Positions 45,914-55,632 of a stretch of DNA of 64,000 nucleotides are shown one piece after another. The stretch is from Candidatus Poribacteria bacterium. GTDB taxonomy: Bacteria > Poribacteria > WGA-4E > WGA-3G. The DNA is taken from assembly GCA_958295945.1 (NCBI GenBank), contig OY282386.1, forward strand, positions 3,900,204-3,964,203, given 5' to 3'. The position numbers were made by a program, and so were the translations under genes. The notes below the pieces were generated by a model. That model worked only from the letters and a program-made list of their open reading frames with translations, made no database searches and was not told the origin of the DNA. Positions within the stretch are counted from its first letter, which is position 1. Every line of letters begins with the position of its first letter.

Positions 45914-47191
45914 ATGAAGATTCCACAAAAACGTAACAACAATACCAATTGTGTTTTAGTCAAACCATTGGGAATCTACCTGATGTTTTCTTTATCTATC
46001 TTCTTTGCAGGCTGTGGCACCTATTATCCCTTTCAACATACTGAGACGAAACAAACGGTCTACATACCCGAACCTGTTCCACCTCCGACAACTGTCCGAG
46101 AAGCATTTGAACTTGACCCTTTTTACCAACAATGGATTGATGTAGGAGGTTTACCTGTTATAGCGTCTGCGAGGGTAAATCCTTATGCATTAAAAGAGGC
46201 AGCCTGGCTTATTAGACAAATGCTTCAACACCGTGAGGATATACTACTTGCCCTTGTGAAAAACGGTTTGCGTTTTGTTGTGATTGCACACAACGAAAAA
46301 ATAACACAAATTCCTGAATACGATTACCTAAGACCAAAATTCTATTGGGATTTACGGGCACGAGGCTTAGGTGCGAGACCTCCAATTTTTATAGCGAGTT
46401 GTGGCGAGGAAAACCTGCTGAATTATCAAGGAGACCCTTATAAGTCTAATAGTATTTTGATTCACGAATTCAGTCATGCAATTCACCTGATAGGATTGAA
46501 AAGTGTTGATCCAAGTTTTGACAAACGACTCAAGCAGGCATTTATTTCTGCAAGGCAAAATGGGTTATGGAAAAGATTATATGCTATTACAAACGAAGAA
46601 GAGTACTGGGCTGAAGGCACACAATTTTGGTTTAACACAGGAAAGAATCATCATGTCAAAACTCGTAAACATTTGAAAACGTATGATCCACTACTCGCTG
46701 CATTGCTTGCTGAAGTCTATGGTGACACTAACTGGCGATACGTACCTGTAACAACACGGACTGGTCTACCTCATTTACATGGCTATAATCCGAGGAAATC
46801 GCAAAAATTTGAATGGCGGTCATTTAAACGAAAATTTTCAGAGTTAAATAAACAATTGCTAAACTCGTATAGCGATGGAGGTGGCAAATGGGTAGACTTA
46901 AAGAAGATTGAGCTGAATAAGAAACAGAAATTAAAATCGGATGTAAACAATTCTGAAACAGAAATCATATTCGTGAATCGCACTCATTCTGACATTGTAT
47001 ACTATTGGATAGATTATGATGGGAACGAGAGATATTATAGTCGTGTTGCCCCCAATTATCATATACCTCAAACCACCCATGTTGGACATTATTGGATAGT
47101 CAGAGATTTGAATGGGAATAATCTGGCATTATTTCAAGCAAACAAGAAAACAGGTCGGGCTTTTGTAACTATAAAGGCTCAGAGAAAGTAG
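45914..47191 (+). CDS. Lipoprotein zinc metallopeptidase with C-terminal VHL-beta-like domain
   Basis: The 425-aa protein has a lipoprotein signal (IYLMFSLSIFFAGC). Residues about 70-330 hold LIHEFSHAIH (H184, E185, H188) and, 46 residues later, EEEYWAEGTQFWF, whose Glu would be the third zinc ligand of a gluzincin. The last 78 residues read EIIFVNRTHSDIVYYWIDYDG, RYYSRVAPNYHIPQTTHVGHYWIVRDLNG: the NR...W..dG...Y.....T..GH.W..rd pattern of the VHL beta domain. It would be anchored in the envelope facing outside. The substrate is unknown; the VHL-like domain may bind a hydroxylated or other ligand. Confidence 0.75.
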   Translation: MKIPQKRNNNTNCVLVKPLGIYLMFSLSIFFAGCGTYYPFQHTETKQTVYIPEPVPPPTTVREAFELDPFYQQWIDVGGLPVIASARVNPYALKEAAWLIRQMLQHREDILLALVKNGLRFVVIAHNEKITQIPEYDYLRPKFYWDLRARGLGARPPIFIASCGEENLLNYQGDPYKSNSILIHEFSHAIHLIGLKSVDPSFDKRLKQAFISARQNGLWKRLYAITNEEEYWAEGTQFWFNTGKNHHVKTRKHLKTYDPLLAALLAEVYGDTNWRYVPVTTRTGLPHLHGYNPRKSQKFEWRSFKRKFSELNKQLLNSYSDGGGKWVDLKKIELNKKQKLKSDVNNSETEIIFVNRTHSDIVYYWIDYDGNERYYSRVAPNYHIPQTTHVGHYWIVRDLNGNNLALFQANKKTGRAFVTIKAQRK

Positions 47192-47218: not shown

Positions 47219-48370
47219 ATGAAACGACTGACACTAACTACATTAGGGCAAATTGCAACAGCAGATATTGCGTTTGGAGACTTGACGGTGTTTGTCGGTG
47301 AACAAGCAAGCGGAAAGAGTATACTGTTACAACTCATAAAGTTGATTTCGGATGGAGGTGGAATTACGCAAACCCTTAGAAAACACGGTTTTGATTGGCA
47401 AAAAAATAGCAATAAGTTTTTATCCCTCTATTTTGGTGAAGGAATGGAGGGAATATGGAAAGAGAATGAGACTACAGTCACTTATGATAGAACAGATTTT
47501 ACACCTCAGAAAGTGCTATTAAAAAGAAAAAAAGAAGAAAGTGTTTTTCTCATACCTGCCCATCGTGTAGTTACATTAAAAGATGGATGGCCGCGCGCGT
47601 TTACTGATTATGGCACAAGTGATCCTTATGTCGTTAAGGAGTTCAGTGAACAATTACGGCTCTTGATGGAGGCAGGATTAGGTTCTGGTGAGAGACCTAT
47701 CTTTCCACAAGAAGGTCGTATGAATAAAACAATACGGGATGCAATTGGAAGAAGTATCTTTGGGAAAGCAGAGGTGAGATTGGATAGGTCTGGTCTGCGT
47801 AAACGGATTGTATTAGATGTAGAAGGAACACAACTACCGTTTATGGTGTGGTCTACAGGTCAGAGAGAATTCGCTCCTCTTTTACTGGGATTGTACTGGT
47901 TAATGCCTTCAGGAAATACACAAAAGAAAAATAACATCAACTGGGTTGTAATTGAAGAACCAGAAATGGGATTACATCCTCAAGCGATCTCGGCACTTCT
48001 TCTGATGTTCTTAGAACTATTAAGACGAGGTTATAATGTCATTGTTTCCACCCATTCACCCCAAATTTTGGAACTTGTTTGGGCAATTCAATTCATCGCA
48101 AAATCAAAAGACGCACCAGCACGTTTAAGACAATTGCTGGGTTTGAAAGCAAATGCCTTTTCTTATGACCTTACAGAGACAGTCATAAGCAAAAAAACAT
48201 ACAAAACATATTATTTTTCTCGTCAGCATAATGCTGTTACTGTCAAAGATATTTCTACATTAGATGCTGAGGATATGGATGAGGCAGTATCAGATTGGGG
48301 AGGACTAACAGCGTTCAGCACCAAAGCTTCTGAAGTAGTTTCTGATGCTATGGGGAGGACAGACCTGTGA
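47219..48370 (+). CDS. ABC-type AAA ATPase (second ATPase/partner module)
   Basis: The 383-aa protein has Walker A GEQASGKS (27-34), a signature WSTGQREFAPLLLGLYWL (W211), Walker B NWVVIEEPEMGLHPQ (about 240-254) and H-loop VIVSTHSPQILEL. The arrangement is that of a RecF/OLD-like ATPase without a TOPRIM domain. An ATTAAACT leader with AAGGAG precedes the ATG. The stop overlaps the next GTG start in GTGA, exactly as in 2194-3588. It is shorter than the first module's ATPase and not closely alike outside the motifs. Role unknown; association with defence is inference. Confidence 0.82.
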   Translation: MKRLTLTTLGQIATADIAFGDLTVFVGEQASGKSILLQLIKLISDGGGITQTLRKHGFDWQKNSNKFLSLYFGEGMEGIWKENETTVTYDRTDFTPQKVLLKRKKEESVFLIPAHRVVTLKDGWPRAFTDYGTSDPYVVKEFSEQLRLLMEAGLGSGERPIFPQEGRMNKTIRDAIGRSIFGKAEVRLDRSGLRKRIVLDVEGTQLPFMVWSTGQREFAPLLLGLYWLMPSGNTQKKNNINWVVIEEPEMGLHPQAISALLLMFLELLRRGYNVIVSTHSPQILELVWAIQFIAKSKDAPARLRQLLGLKANAFSYDLTETVISKKTYKTYYFSRQHNAVTVKDISTLDAEDMDEAVSDWGGLTAFSTKASEVVSDAMGRTDL

Positions 48371-48816
48371 ATTTTAAGGAATCTGTTCAGAAAACACCAA
48401 AAATCGTCAATTATCTACAAGCTGGACTACAAGCATTGGGTGGAAATAGTAGTAAAATAATAGTGAACACAACCCGTGATTTGAAAGGAAGCGTTGATAT
48501 AGATATCTGTCTCAAAAACGATTATCCAAATTCACCTCGTTGGGACTATGTATTTGGGTATAAGGACAAGGTTTTTTATGTTGAAATACATCAAGGTAAA
48601 ACCAGTGAAGTAGATAGCATCATTTTAAAGTTCAATTGGTTGAAACAGTGGCTTAAGTCTTCAGCAAACAATCTTGAACAATTAATGGATAGAAGTTTCT
48701 ATCACTGGATCTCCACAAAAGGAACTGCGTCAATTGCAAAAGGGAGTAGACACCGTAGGAGGCTAGATCAAAAGGGAATCAGTGGTCCAAGTGCTGTATT
48801 GCGAATTGACCGTTGA
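48367..48816 (+). CDS. Small partner protein with a possible PD-(D/E)XK-like core
   Basis: The 149-aa protein starts with GTG in a GTGA overlap with the ATPase. The central part reads RWDYVFGYKDKVFYVEIHQGKTSEVD: D60 on one strand, 13 residues later E73-I-H75-Q76-G-K78. This parallels D73...E90-T-Q92-K-G in the partner at 3585-4142, and both follow with a helix. An E-x-H/Q-x-x-K arrangement could be a variant nuclease site; this is a hypothesis. A highly basic SRHRRRLDQKG near the C-terminus could contact nucleic acid. Confidence 0.7.
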   Translation: MNFKESVQKTPKIVNYLQAGLQALGGNSSKIIVNTTRDLKGSVDIDICLKNDYPNSPRWDYVFGYKDKVFYVEIHQGKTSEVDSIILKFNWLKQWLKSSANNLEQLMDRSFYHWISTKGTASIAKGSRHRRRLDQKGISGPSAVLRIDR

Positions 48817-50916: not shown

Positions 50917-53900
50917 TTGTTTTACCTATTTGCTTGCGTAATCTTATTAATTATGGGGATTGTATTTAGAATGGCAAAACGAATCCAATCAATTCAACAG
51001 AAGGTTCCTATTGGCAGTCAAGTCACATTTACGCTTAAAACTGACGAAAAAGTCTCAGGTATTCTTACAGAGATTGCACTTGAACATATTACCCTAGAGG
51101 TGGGAAATCGTCAAAAAACGATTTTTGAGGAAGCAATCTTGATGTTTGACGTTCAGGATCAGGACAATGAAGTTGAAACAATTAACTCAACAGATGCTAA
51201 CCTAGAACCAACCGAACCCGTCGCAAAGCAGGCTGAAGTATCGGAGTCTCTAGATACTAACATAGAACCAACCGAACCTGTCCCAAAGCAAATTGAATTA
51301 TCAGAGTCTGTAAATGCAAATACAGAATCATCAGAACCCGTTTCAGAACAGGTTAAAGCGTCTAACACAACAGATGCTAGCATACAAGAAATTGATTCAA
51401 GTTTAGATCTTGTTGAGATGCCCGATCCAACAGATACTAACACAGAAAAAATAGCACTTGTTGATTCTGAAAAACAAGCTTCTGAACAACTTGATGAAAT
51501 TGAAAAACGGTTTAAAAGCGAAATTGAAAATGCTAAAATTGAATTGGAATCGCCAGATTTTGCCTTTCCTGCAGATGAATTGAAAGGTTGGCAAAATACA
51601 GGGATCGCTGGTAAATGGTTACAAATCAAGAATAAGTATGAGAACGCTCAAAGAATCAATGAATTAAGTACTAAATTTGGTAGAATTCAACCCCTTCTTA
51701 CAGAAATCAAATCTTTAGCTAGACGTTTCCCAAATTCCCCATCACTAAAACGAGTTACTGCCTATTTTTACGCTGTTTCAGATGATTGGCAAGAGGCAAT
51801 TCAGATCTATCAAGAGATAGCGATTACTTCAGACGACTCTACTAATTGGTTCAATGTTGCAGTATCAGCGTTGAATCTGAATAAAGAAGAACTCGCTTGT
51901 TATAGTTTGGAAAAATACTTCAAAGGCGTTTCTGTAATTGATAGGCCTAATGCATGGTTTATTTATGTCAATCTCGTAGAGAAATTTAACAATCTTTCTG
52001 CCTTCCGTGAACAGTGTACAAAAGACGAGAATGATGTTGATAAAAATGCAATTGAAGTCTTATTGGATGCTGCCATATATCTGTTTAAAAAGAAGATCAC
52101 CACAGAATTAGCAACAGAAATTGTTATGAGACGTATAAAAGGCGAACCAGTAGTATCTCTGCTAAAAGAAGTGTGTCAAAAGCTCGGTGGACAATCCACT
52201 GAATCTTACCGTCAGGCTGTGTCCACATTCATGACCGAGATGATTGCCTCAGAAAAGAAAACACATCCACTAACTCTTGAACATCCTGAACACTCTGGTC
52301 CCGTGAGAAAGAGTGTTGATCATATAACATCACAAAAACAGGATGTACAAACTCAAAACGAGGATCCTTATGCAAGTGCAAAACGTGCTGATGTATTAGA
52401 AAAAGACCTTGAGAAAGCAGAACGCCTTTATAGAGAATGTATTGAACGAAATATCCGATATGAAAGTGTTATTAAAGATTTGGCAATGGTACTCGTTCGG
52501 TTAAGGAAACCAGAGGAAGCAGTGGAGTTACTAGAAAAGAATCGTCAAAAAGTTAAAAATAAACAAGCTTTAGATAATGTGCTACATGTTGTTTATTCCG
52601 CTGCAGCTCAGTATAAAAAAGCAATTGACTTACTTAACAATGCTCTCAAGCAAGCACAGGACCAGGATCGAAAATTGTATATTCGTATGCAAATCGCGAG
52701 TAATTATATTAAGTTGGAAGACTATGTAAATGCCGAAAACGAATTACGTCAGGTACTAAGATTATGGACAAACAATATTACCGTAATAAGACATCTTGCC
52801 TTTTGCCTATCAAAACAGAATCGTTATGATGAAGCAAAGCAGATTTTGAATAAAATTCAGAGTACGTCATCTGATGCGAAAACCATAGGACTATTAGAAG
52901 CGATTGAAAGAGCACAGAGGACAGGTAAATTTACCCTTGATGAAGATACCATCATTGAGATTGAAACTGTTCTTTCATATCTTTCAGGTGAATTAAGCAA
53001 CTTTGCACAATTTTTCCTGGATCGTTGTGCGTTTGACGGTGTTTCGCCTGATCGGGTGAGTGAGGAGAAATACACTGGTTCTGAAAAAGATTTTCGGTAT
53101 GATATAGGAAGACTTGAAGAGATTGCTAAACAATTAGGTACTAGACGGCCACGCGATCGAAGTAGTTATTATCTTTCAGCTGCAAGAATCTATTTTGATC
53201 TAGAGGGAAATCACAATTTGTTCTATCGATATCTCTGTCGTAGTTTTGCCTCAAGGGGCGATGCTGCCGTGAGTGAAAATAAACATTTGGATACTGTTCG
53301 AGAATGGTATTGTGGGGCATTAGCTGCTTATGATGGAGACAAGACACATCGTAAAGGAAAAGGGGATGAGCAAGATGCAGTTAATTCCCTTGTCAGATAT
53401 CTGTATTCAACATTAGGACATGCCCATATTGATCTTACTCCGAACACCCGAACTTTCAACAAAGTAGTGAGAGATGTAATTGTCAATCATCCTGATAAGA
53501 AAAAAGTTTTTGATTTCATTGCGTATCTTGTTTTACACAGTCGGTTTGCCGCTGACAGAGTTTTGCACCGTCTATATGATAATGAAAGTCTACGGACGAT
53601 GGCTATTGATTATTTAAAAGGTATGGGTATAGAAGTATCTAATGTAATGGGACAACTCGTTGATTTTGTGCGTCCATGGAATGAATTGCGAAATAAGAAA
53701 TCTAATACAGCTCAGAACACGTCAGACAAATTGCGGTTATTGAACAACTTTGATCTTACTACATCATGGTTAGAAGATAACATTAGATTCGCAGAAGACA
53801 TTCGCTCAGGTTTGTTCTTTGAATTAGATCAACAACGAGTTGGAGAGTTGCAGAGGATCCTTGAAAGTTCATTGGAACTTTGCAAACAAGTGACATTTGA

Positions 53901-55632
53901 GGAACGGGAACGTCTGTGCATTCAACTTGGTAATCATTGTCAAACTCTGTGCCGAGAAATAGAAGAAAGCCCGACCAAAGTATCTGTAGAAGATGTTTAT
54001 CCTATTACCGAAGCAATCCAGGAGAAGGTAAATACATATCTTAACGAACTTTACGAAACTTCAAAACCTCAATTGACACTGAGACTACCAGTAGAATCTT
54101 ACGTTCCTGACAATGACCAGAAAATTGAAGTTCAGATTGTGTTAGAGAATGAGAGAGGACGGAGTCCGGCTGAGTCATTGGAGTTAATCGTTCAGAGAGA
54201 CGAAGCTTTTTTTGCAGTTACAGAACCAAATATAAAACAAAATGAATCTTTACGTGGAGGCGAGTCATCAATTCTAACTGTACCCTTACGTGTAACTCCT
54301 GACGCTTTACAATCACAAACATTTTCTCTATCCCTTTCTGCTCAGTATCACACTCGTAAAGAAGAACAAGTACAAACTCCAGTTGAGAATCTTTCCATTC
54401 GCCTTTATTTAGAAGATGAATTTGAGAAAATTGAAAACCCGTATGCGCGTTTTGCTGAAGGTGGTGTTGTTGGCGATGCAAAGATGTTCTTCGGGCGTGA
54501 AGAGTTAATCCAAAATATCGCTCAGGCTATCCGAGAATCTCGCAAGCAGAGCAAGTCTATCATGGTATTTGGGCAAAAACGATCTGGAAAATCTTCGGTT
54601 TTATATCATCTAAAGAAGTCACTCGAAAAAGATAGAGAGTTCCTTATACTTGATTTGGGAAACATGTCGACCCTTCTGGATCAAGAGGCTCAGACCTCAC
54701 TCTTGCATCAATTTCTCAATGGTATTTTGAAATCACTTGAACGTGGGATTCAGCAAAAACAACGTAAGGGTTCAAACCCCCTTGAACTTGCTATTCCTGG
54801 TAAAGAATTCTACGATGATCCCGCGCCTCTGCAACTTTTTGAAGATACCTTTGTAAGACTACAAGATTTGACTGATAATCAAACAGGGCATGAAGATTGG
54901 CGTGGCATAATGGCTGTTCTCCTGATAGATGAATTTCAATATATCTATGATCCTATCATTGAAGGCAAAATTCCCGATTCGTTCATGAAAAATTGGAAAG
55001 CCTTGCTGCAGGCAAACTATTTTAGTGCTGTGTTAGTAGGACAAGATGTGATGCAGAAGTTTAAACTACGATTTCCTAATGAGTTTGGAACAATGCAGGA
55101 TGAGCGAGTCACCTATCTCAAGGAGGAAGATGCACGTAGACTTATTGATGAACCAATACGCATTGGAGGAAGAGAAGGCGACAGCCGTTATCGGGAACAA
55201 GCAATAGATCGAATTTTAGATCTTACTGCGGGAAGTCCATTCTATATTCAAATTATTTGTAACCGTCTCGTTGACTATATGAATGTTAAACATGCTGGAC
55301 TGGCAACAGAGGCAGATGTAGAACAAGTCAAAAATGAACTCATACACGACGTAAATGCCCTTGGTTTAGATAAATTTGATAATCTCATCAATTCGGGAGA
55401 TACATCACCAGATGCTATTTCAGATGAAGATGCGATAAAAGTCCTGAAAGCCATTGCTGACAATAGTAATAAGACAGATCCTTGTCATCGCGATAAAATC
55501 GTTTGTGAAACCAATTTACCAATTGATACAATTCTGGACGATCTTGTGAATCGGGATGTTGTTAAACGCCGCGATCAATCTTATCAAATTCAAGTTGGGC
55601 TCTTTAAAGAATGGCTTGATGTGAACGGATAA
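50917..55632 (+). CDS. Large TPR/NTPase protein (STAND-like), 1571 aa
   Basis: The start is uncertain: TTG at 50917 gives a membrane anchor (FYLFACVILLIMGIVF), but ATG at 50953 or 50971 is possible. A small beta domain follows (IGSQVTFTLKTDEKVSGILTEIALEHITLEV, Sm- or SH3-like), then a tandem EPTEPVAKQ-like acidic linker, an array of TPR-type repeats (about 230-640), a helical middle region, a beta domain, and near residue 1190 an NTPase with YARFAEGG, FFGREELI, Walker A FGQKRSGKSS (about 1216-1225) and Walker B LLIDEFQYIYD. The following gene is another NTPase. The form is typical of STAND-type signalling proteins. Confidence 0.75.
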   Translation: MFYLFACVILLIMGIVFRMAKRIQSIQQKVPIGSQVTFTLKTDEKVSGILTEIALEHITLEVGNRQKTIFEEAILMFDVQDQDNEVETINSTDANLEPTEPVAKQAEVSESLDTNIEPTEPVPKQIELSESVNANTESSEPVSEQVKASNTTDASIQEIDSSLDLVEMPDPTDTNTEKIALVDSEKQASEQLDEIEKRFKSEIENAKIELESPDFAFPADELKGWQNTGIAGKWLQIKNKYENAQRINELSTKFGRIQPLLTEIKSLARRFPNSPSLKRVTAYFYAVSDDWQEAIQIYQEIAITSDDSTNWFNVAVSALNLNKEELACYSLEKYFKGVSVIDRPNAWFIYVNLVEKFNNLSAFREQCTKDENDVDKNAIEVLLDAAIYLFKKKITTELATEIVMRRIKGEPVVSLLKEVCQKLGGQSTESYRQAVSTFMTEMIASEKKTHPLTLEHPEHSGPVRKSVDHITSQKQDVQTQNEDPYASAKRADVLEKDLEKAERLYRECIERNIRYESVIKDLAMVLVRLRKPEEAVELLEKNRQKVKNKQALDNVLHVVYSAAAQYKKAIDLLNNALKQAQDQDRKLYIRMQIASNYIKLEDYVNAENELRQVLRLWTNNITVIRHLAFCLSKQNRYDEAKQILNKIQSTSSDAKTIGLLEAIERAQRTGKFTLDEDTIIEIETVLSYLSGELSNFAQFFLDRCAFDGVSPDRVSEEKYTGSEKDFRYDIGRLEEIAKQLGTRRPRDRSSYYLSAARIYFDLEGNHNLFYRYLCRSFASRGDAAVSENKHLDTVREWYCGALAAYDGDKTHRKGKGDEQDAVNSLVRYLYSTLGHAHIDLTPNTRTFNKVVRDVIVNHPDKKKVFDFIAYLVLHSRFAADRVLHRLYDNESLRTMAIDYLKGMGIEVSNVMGQLVDFVRPWNELRNKKSNTAQNTSDKLRLLNNFDLTTSWLEDNIRFAEDIRSGLFFELDQQRVGELQRILESSLELCKQVTFEERERLCIQLGNHCQTLCREIEESPTKVSVEDVYPITEAIQEKVNTYLNELYETSKPQLTLRLPVESYVPDNDQKIEVQIVLENERGRSPAESLELIVQRDEAFFAVTEPNIKQNESLRGGESSILTVPLRVTPDALQSQTFSLSLSAQYHTRKEEQVQTPVENLSIRLYLEDEFEKIENPYARFAEGGVVGDAKMFFGREELIQNIAQAIRESRKQSKSIMVFGQKRSGKSSVLYHLKKSLEKDREFLILDLGNMSTLLDQEAQTSLLHQFLNGILKSLERGIQQKQRKGSNPLELAIPGKEFYDDPAPLQLFEDTFVRLQDLTDNQTGHEDWRGIMAVLLIDEFQYIYDPIIEGKIPDSFMKNWKALLQANYFSAVLVGQDVMQKFKLRFPNEFGTMQDERVTYLKEEDARRLIDEPIRIGGREGDSRYREQAIDRILDLTAGSPFYIQIICNRLVDYMNVKHAGLATEADVEQVKNELIHDVNALGLDKFDNLINSGDTSPDAISDEDAIKVLKAIADNSNKTDPCHRDKIVCETNLPIDTILDDLVNRDVVKRRDQSYQIQVGLFKEWLDVNG

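Follow-up and report, generated by a model that had tools for sequence, protein, structure and literature searches.

A Candidatus Poribacteria metallopeptidase with a C-terminal von Hippel-Lindau beta domain and a hydroxyproline-type pocket

The von Hippel-Lindau protein (VHL) is the animal hydroxyproline reader central to oxygen sensing. Its hydroxyproline site in human VHL is made of Trp88, Tyr98, His110, Ser111, His115 and Trp117, as given in passages of PMC9528729 and PMC6650433, and Ser111 together with His115 bonds the 4-hydroxyl group of hydroxyproline, according to a passage of the former. Bacterial VHL domains as such are already known from Pfam matches and from one paper, the available portion of which (PMC9002001) treats a VHL-domain hypothetical protein of Litorilituus sediminis as a possible tumour suppressor, with neither a protease context nor a pocket analysis in that portion. 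On the protease side, the closest described enzymes are the exported Pro-Pro endopeptidases PPEP-1, PPEP-2 and PPEP-3. The zinc ligands of PPEP-3 are His153, His157 and Glu197, with Glu154 as the base and Tyr190 as the catalytic tyrosine (excerpted from PMC12828418). A literature search combining VHL with Poribacteria, bacterial peptidases or homologues, most subscription journals lying outside its coverage, returned no report of a VHL-protease, and a search joining Pro-Pro endopeptidase and lethal factor returned none. The VHL fusion with a PPEP fold, the conservation of its pocket and the recurrence of VHL on peptidases, all described below, therefore appear unreported.

The protein studied here has 425 aa and is encoded in a 64,000-nucleotide stretch, hereafter the window, of a contig from Candidatus Poribacteria, a group of sponge symbionts (Table 1). 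An initial annotation had read it as a metallopeptidase with an export signal, a HEFSH...EEYWAEG zinc peptidase and a VHL-beta-like C-terminal domain. All three parts are borne out: a hydrophobic stretch ends in FAGC, both zinc peptidase motifs are present as described (the second as NEEEYWAEG at residues 227-235), and the VHL domain on a bacterial metallopeptidase is confirmed by the open reading frame, a profile match and the modelled fold. That annotation overlooked the PPEP fold of the protease and the presence of VHL domains on bacterial S9 peptidases.

Table 1. Positions in the window of the gene and of the parts of its product
Feature	Position	Strand	Remark
Whole gene	45914..47191	+	ATG start, 425 aa; predicted exported metallopeptidase with C-terminal VHL beta domain
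Signal-like N-terminus with lipobox-like FAGC	45914..46015	+	Cys34 at 46013-46015
Proline-rich segment IPEPVPPPTTVRE after the anchor	46064..46102	+	PP common in homologues
Zinc metallopeptidase domain, Pro-Pro endopeptidase / lethal-factor catalytic fold	46085..46726	+	About residues 58-271
HEFSH zinc-binding motif (H184, E185, H188; residues 184-188)	46463..46477	+	Invariant H, E, H
Tyr223, predicted catalytic tyrosine	46580..46582	+	7 residues before the zinc Glu, cf. PPEP-1, PPEP-3
Glu230, predicted third zinc ligand	46601..46603	+	54/54 short homologues
VHL beta domain	46922..47182	+	About residues 337-423; profile, phmmer, model folds
Trp365 = human VHL Trp88	47006..47008	+	Alignment
Tyr375 = human VHL Tyr98	47036..47038	+	Alignment
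Thr388 = human VHL Ser111	47075..47077	+	Alignment
His392 = human VHL His115	47087..47089	+	Alignment
Trp394 = human VHL Trp117	47093..47095	+	Alignment

The Pfam VHL profile (PF01847) significantly matches residues 343-403 (E-value = 3.9e-8, 33.7 bits against a curated cut-off of 21), and phmmer finds human VHL among the PDB sequences (E-value = 8.7e-5, residues 340-402). A search of NCBIfam with the protein gave no match. AlphaFold models were built for the whole protein from 6 sequences (mean pLDDT 62.2, weak at residues 142-176) and for the domain alone from 5 sequences (mean pLDDT 70.6). With the whole model, VHL ranks first in Foldseek (E-value = 2.2e-6), and the domain within it reaches a VIA-align Z of up to 10.1 to VHL. 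The domain-only model superposes on human VHL with a Z of 11.7 and 2.3 Å over 87 residues at 22% identity, recovering the VHL beta fold foreseen in the initial annotation, and all 50 entries listed for it are VHL complexes. The domain thus shares with the human and metazoan VHL beta domains (PF01847; e.g. 1LM8, 4AWJ) the seven-stranded fold and the residues Trp88, Tyr98, His115 and Trp117. It differs from human VHL in having threonine at the positions of Ser111 and His110, in its fusion to a predicted exported protease, and in lacking the Elongin C-binding alpha domain of the pVHL E3 substrate receptor, which is missing because residue 425, the last of the protein, comes immediately after the beta domain.

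In a search of 97 genomes the protein found matches in 59, comprising 52 of the 57 genomes listed in its own family and 7 of the 40 listed outside it, some of these matches being single-domain. These matches, a protein of 81% identity in the Candidatus Poribacteria MAG JAJECK and the recovery of the VHL fold in two models together exclude a chance match. A subset of the matches from this search, 54 short homologues and 22 long poribacterial paralogues, was aligned. The long paralogues have open frames of 588-1262 aa (L029, L060-L072, L083-L086, L108-L110), and some of them carry, by eye, WD40-like, leucine-rich, dockerin-like or C-terminal sorting-type regions. Four orthologues (L079-L082) have no VHL domain and stop right after the peptidase. 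With PF01847 itself, matches above the cut-off were obtained in 40 of 84 genomes of the Poribacteria phylum, in 63 of 291 genomes of a second phylum (that of genome G086), in 2 of 40 of a third group (that of G094), in none of the 4 genomes of a small fourth group (that of G088), and in 0 of the 14 control genomes included in each search.

Most of the VHL domains examined outside Poribacteria are joined to another type of peptidase. Among 30 VHL loci from the second phylum, a subset of all matches to which these shares apply, 27 also match an S9/DPP-IV-type peptidase (in L129 and L131 the S9 match is partial) and three match the metallopeptidase described here (L124, L133, L142); both loci of the third group match S9. 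In a Poribacteria S9 protein, L077, the DPPIV_N, Peptidase_S9 and VHL profiles all score above the Pfam cut-off. The carriers of this architecture are L075-L078, L152, L153 and 27 of L120-L149; VHL precedes the S9 match in most rows and follows it in L146 and L148. Like the 425-aa protein, bacterial proteins such as L077 are peptidases with a pocket-bearing VHL domain, but their catalytic domain is serine-type and unrelated, so that the pocket-bearing domain is found with two peptidase families that have no relation to each other. Not every S9 peptidase is specific for proline.

The peptidase domain belongs firmly to the group formed by the PPEPs and lethal factor, the latter not known as a Pro-Pro enzyme. 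In VIA-align, the closest folds to the modelled domain are PPEP-3, -2 and -1 (Z 10.2-11.3, 3.3-3.7 Å over 160-184 residues, 15-21% identity), the best being PPEP-3 with a Z of 11.3 and 3.5 Å over 173 residues; the lethal-factor catalytic domain comes next (Z 9.7-10.2, 4.2-4.4 Å). A profile made from 25 homologues gave an E-value of 2.1e-6 for PPEP-3 and of about 1e-5 each for PPEP-1 and lethal factor. With lethal factor close behind at Z 10.2, the fold does not single out PPEP, and the preference for PPEP is slight. Lethal-factor-like ATLF peptidases (PF07737) share the catalytic fold and HExxH plus glutamate, but the 425-aa protein scores 19.2 bits with this family, below the cut-off of 27.4; no other toxin domain was matched in Pfam. 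The PPEP-3 zinc ligands, base and catalytic tyrosine have counterparts in H184, H188 and E230, E185, and Y223, respectively, and the Tyr and Glu stand seven residues apart, as they do in PPEP-1 and PPEP-3. None of the five varies among the 54 short homologues, and E185 and Y223 are each kept in 20 of the 22 long paralogues. The protein resembles PPEP-1, -2 and -3 in catalytic fold, HExxH, zinc glutamate, tyrosine spacing and its predicted export. The differences are the additional VHL domain and that Pro-Pro cleavage is here predicted from fold and catalytic residues.

Alignment with human VHL places W365, Y375, T387, T388, H392 and W394 at the hydroxyproline site. Relative to the core five residues of the human protein there is one conservative change, Ser111 to threonine, and His110 is likewise replaced by threonine. 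The initial annotation had proposed to look for conserved Trp, Tyr, His and Ser equivalents. These residues are indeed conserved: Trp88, His115 and Trp117 occur together with Thr or Ser at position 111 in 54/54 short homologues. Ser111 itself is a threonine here, and Tyr98 is present in 37/54, so that all five core positions are kept in 37/54. Sixteen of the 17 sequences missing Tyr98 at its column form a transporter-linked paralogue clade with a tyrosine one column earlier in 16/16, and the remaining one has histidine. Position 111 is threonine in 52/54 short homologues and in 28 of 31 S9 rows, and His110 is found in 42/54 short homologues. All five core pocket positions are kept in 31/31 S9-type rows, Thr/Ser111 with His115 thus being present throughout, and in 3/3 metallopeptidase rows from the other phylum.

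The long poribacterial paralogues present a different picture. None of the 22 has the full pocket (Trp88 in 5, His115 in 0), and yet Asn78 (21/22), Trp117 (18/22) and Asp121 (22/22) are still there. The persistence of the domain in these paralogues means that the fold alone does not force the pocket, and at the level of sequence they serve as a natural control in which the domain survives without it; their pocketless domain has possibly acquired a new ligand. In a comparison with random sets of five of 54 columns, which ignores the relatedness of the rows, the pocket columns stood out as more conserved in two groups, the S9 one (0 of 100,000 draws) and the short one (P = 0.003), but not in the long group (P = 0.72). 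As rows L047 and L050 are copies that overlap L076 and L077, the final pocket counts and this test leave them out; the first pocket alignment still had them inside a no-peptidase group of 7. A further frame of 940 aa, L074, combines by eye a leucine-rich-repeat-like region with a VHL domain and has no match to this peptidase; it keeps Trp88, Tyr98, His115 and Trp117, with alanine at position 111.

Trees were computed from 77 rows and 64 columns, with 18 of the 54 short rows. A first AU test rejected a single clade of the 18 short poribacterial and the three other-phylum metallopeptidase rows (p = 0.013), in a grouping without the long paralogues, whose branches fall among those of the short sequences. 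Under a fairer grouping one clade was not rejected (p = 0.315, or 0.368 without L142), and the case for independent fusions of VHL with the metallopeptidase fell away, one and two fusion events being indistinguishable. Human VHL was placed on the S9 side of the tree, on a long branch of unsure position.

The putative lipobox, FAGC at residues 31-34 after the hydrophobic stretch, is read from the sequence by pattern alone and has Phe at -3, a less usual residue there. When the lipobox is defined loosely, 6/54 short homologues carry it, and these correspond to the near clade of the 425-aa protein. A crude rule for export based on a hydrophobic start, applied after excluding three S9 rows without N-terminal sequence, picks out 42/54 short, 19/22 long, 18/28 S9 and 3/3 other-phylum sequences, and 0/87 shuffled ones; it misses the signal of the 425-aa protein itself because the hydrophobic core there starts late. 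In the proline-rich N-terminal segment, PP occurs in 50/54 short and 21/22 long homologues. The VHL-less orthologues still have the segment, with PP in 3/4.

Directly downstream of the gene lie two PADLOC candidates, PDC-M56A (47219-48370, E-value = 3e-158), an AAA gene, and PDC-M56B (48367-48816, 1.7e-49), followed by a NUDIX gene and then an oxidoreductase gene; upstream is a GH32 gene. In JAJECK, too, AAA, NUDIX and oxidoreductase genes come after the homologue. At 22/54 short loci and at the loci of the four VHL-less orthologues, a PDC-M56A-like AAA gene of the same strand follows within about 1.6 kb, and in those of the latter that were read a NUDIX gene stands between the peptidase and the AAA gene. 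The same genome has a second short copy (L002 382-2807, about 759 kb), and in L002 and its clade an amino-acid ABC transporter binding-protein gene comes next at 16/16 loci. Neither neighbour is found at 16/54 short loci, a few of them with little downstream sequence. Farther along the window, positions 50917-55632 hold a 1571-aa ORF with, by eye, TPR-like and ATPase-like regions.

Both domains, an intact catalytic set and an intact VHL-type pocket were found computationally, as were export-like starts in many homologues. We tentatively propose, with confidence a little short of even, that the protein is a surface zinc endopeptidase of the PPEP/lethal-factor fold in which the VHL beta domain acts as a (hydroxy)proline substrate-docking module. 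The enzyme would be located outside the cell, probably lipid-anchored. Judged from the aligned residues, the VHL pocket would bind either 4-hydroxyproline or a turn resembling proline on extracellular proteins of foreign origin, and the domain would hold the chain while the zinc site cut close by, at bonds that are probably proline-rich; we infer both the binding of hydroxyproline and the cleavage of Pro-Pro. A self-made hydroxylated target was considered and set aside, the same genome having no match at E 0.01 to the PF13640 oxygenase family or to the collagen repeat (PF01391). This makes a foreign hydroxylated target more likely, and removes these two families only. If the host is a sponge, its collagen-type proteins may be targets; algal hydroxyproline-rich glycoproteins are another candidate. 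Passages of a survey of sponge MAGs report no collagenase genes, and mention, among the targets of enriched sugar hydrolases, the sugars that algal extensins carry on hydroxyproline (PMC8163846). The cleavage might serve peptide nutrition, which the transporter gene beside the L002 clade fits, or matrix remodelling. A link to hydroxyproline catabolism received no support, the hydroxyproline 2-epimerase family PF05544 being found in 1/84 genomes of the phylum and not in this one. Counting against the docking proposal are the threonine at 111, T387 in place of His110, the loss of Tyr98 in 17/54, the VHL-less L079-L082, the rarity of PF05544, a lethal factor that scores almost as well as PPEP, S9 peptidases that include members without proline specificity, and mean pLDDT values of 62.2 and 70.6 for the two models.

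Some of the same observations would suit a docking module whose pocket reads another ligand, be it a turn of unmodified proline, the end of a chain or the hydroxyl of a sugar; the enzyme would then be a general surface protease for proline-rich chains. The Thr for Ser111 in 52/54 short and 28/31 S9 rows and the failure to find PF05544 in 83/84 phylum genomes point this way, and PPEPs handle unmodified proline, as part of PMC12828418 describes. However, the two positions that bond the 4-hydroxyl group are Thr/Ser and His in 54/54 short and 31/31 S9 rows, which would be superfluous for unmodified proline, and we consider this ligand rather unlikely. It is improbable that the VHL domain serves the enzyme itself, as a stabilising cap or as a lid on the proline-rich segment by the anchor that controls activity or self-release. 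Such a role would suit the PP of that segment in 50/54 short homologues and the long paralogues, which keep VHL without the pocket and hence have some other use for it. Yet PP is equally common in those pocketless paralogues (21/22), so that the segment does not track the pocket and was rejected as an intramolecular ligand; the VHL-less orthologues also keep the segment (PP 3/4), and VHL is found on the unrelated S9 enzymes.

The neighbouring genes raise the question of whether the peptidase gene is part of the adjoining candidate phage-defence cluster and works with it, given that the next two genes match PDC-M56A and PDC-M56B and that the AAA gene recurs near the peptidase (22/54 short loci and the four VHL-less orthologues). 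This is very improbable: the peptidase looks exported, but the AAA protein starts, by eye, without a hydrophobic stretch; one paralogue clade lies beside a transporter gene instead (16/16), and 16/54 short loci have neither neighbour. Scarcely credible, finally, is mimicry of the host VHL in the HIF-VHL oxygen-sensing pathway. The domain does resemble human VHL, and one survey credits a sponge with VHL and HIF components (PMC9618697), the same source also citing earlier work that did not find HIF in sponge. However, the protein looks exported and anchored, the Elongin C-recruiting alpha domain is missing, and the same domain is carried by S9 peptidases in other phyla.

Returning to the docking proposal, a wider reading, in which our doubt outweighs our belief, is that bacteria possess hydroxyproline-reading proteases, a VHL-type reader having been joined to two exported peptidase families that are unrelated to each other and best known for members acting at proline. 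In animal oxygen sensing, VHL would then represent one role of a reader with another, possibly earlier, role in bacterial protein degradation. If exported bacterial proteases do carry an intact pocket, hydroxyproline recognition would not be confined to animals, and there would be a concrete candidate for the means by which sponge symbionts could attack hydroxyproline-rich proteins. A simple test becomes available, the comparison of hydroxyproline and proline peptides for binding, and bacterial VHL domains could supply hydroxyproline-specific binding modules as tools.

Relatives were also sought among mobile elements. None was found in viral contigs, and the plasmid search gave two matching records, from Nostoc and Calothrix. 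On the plasmid of Nostoc sp. C057 (L150 2854-3216), the VHL domain stands alone in an exported-looking protein of 120 aa with the pocket present, and its gene adjoins an integrase gene.
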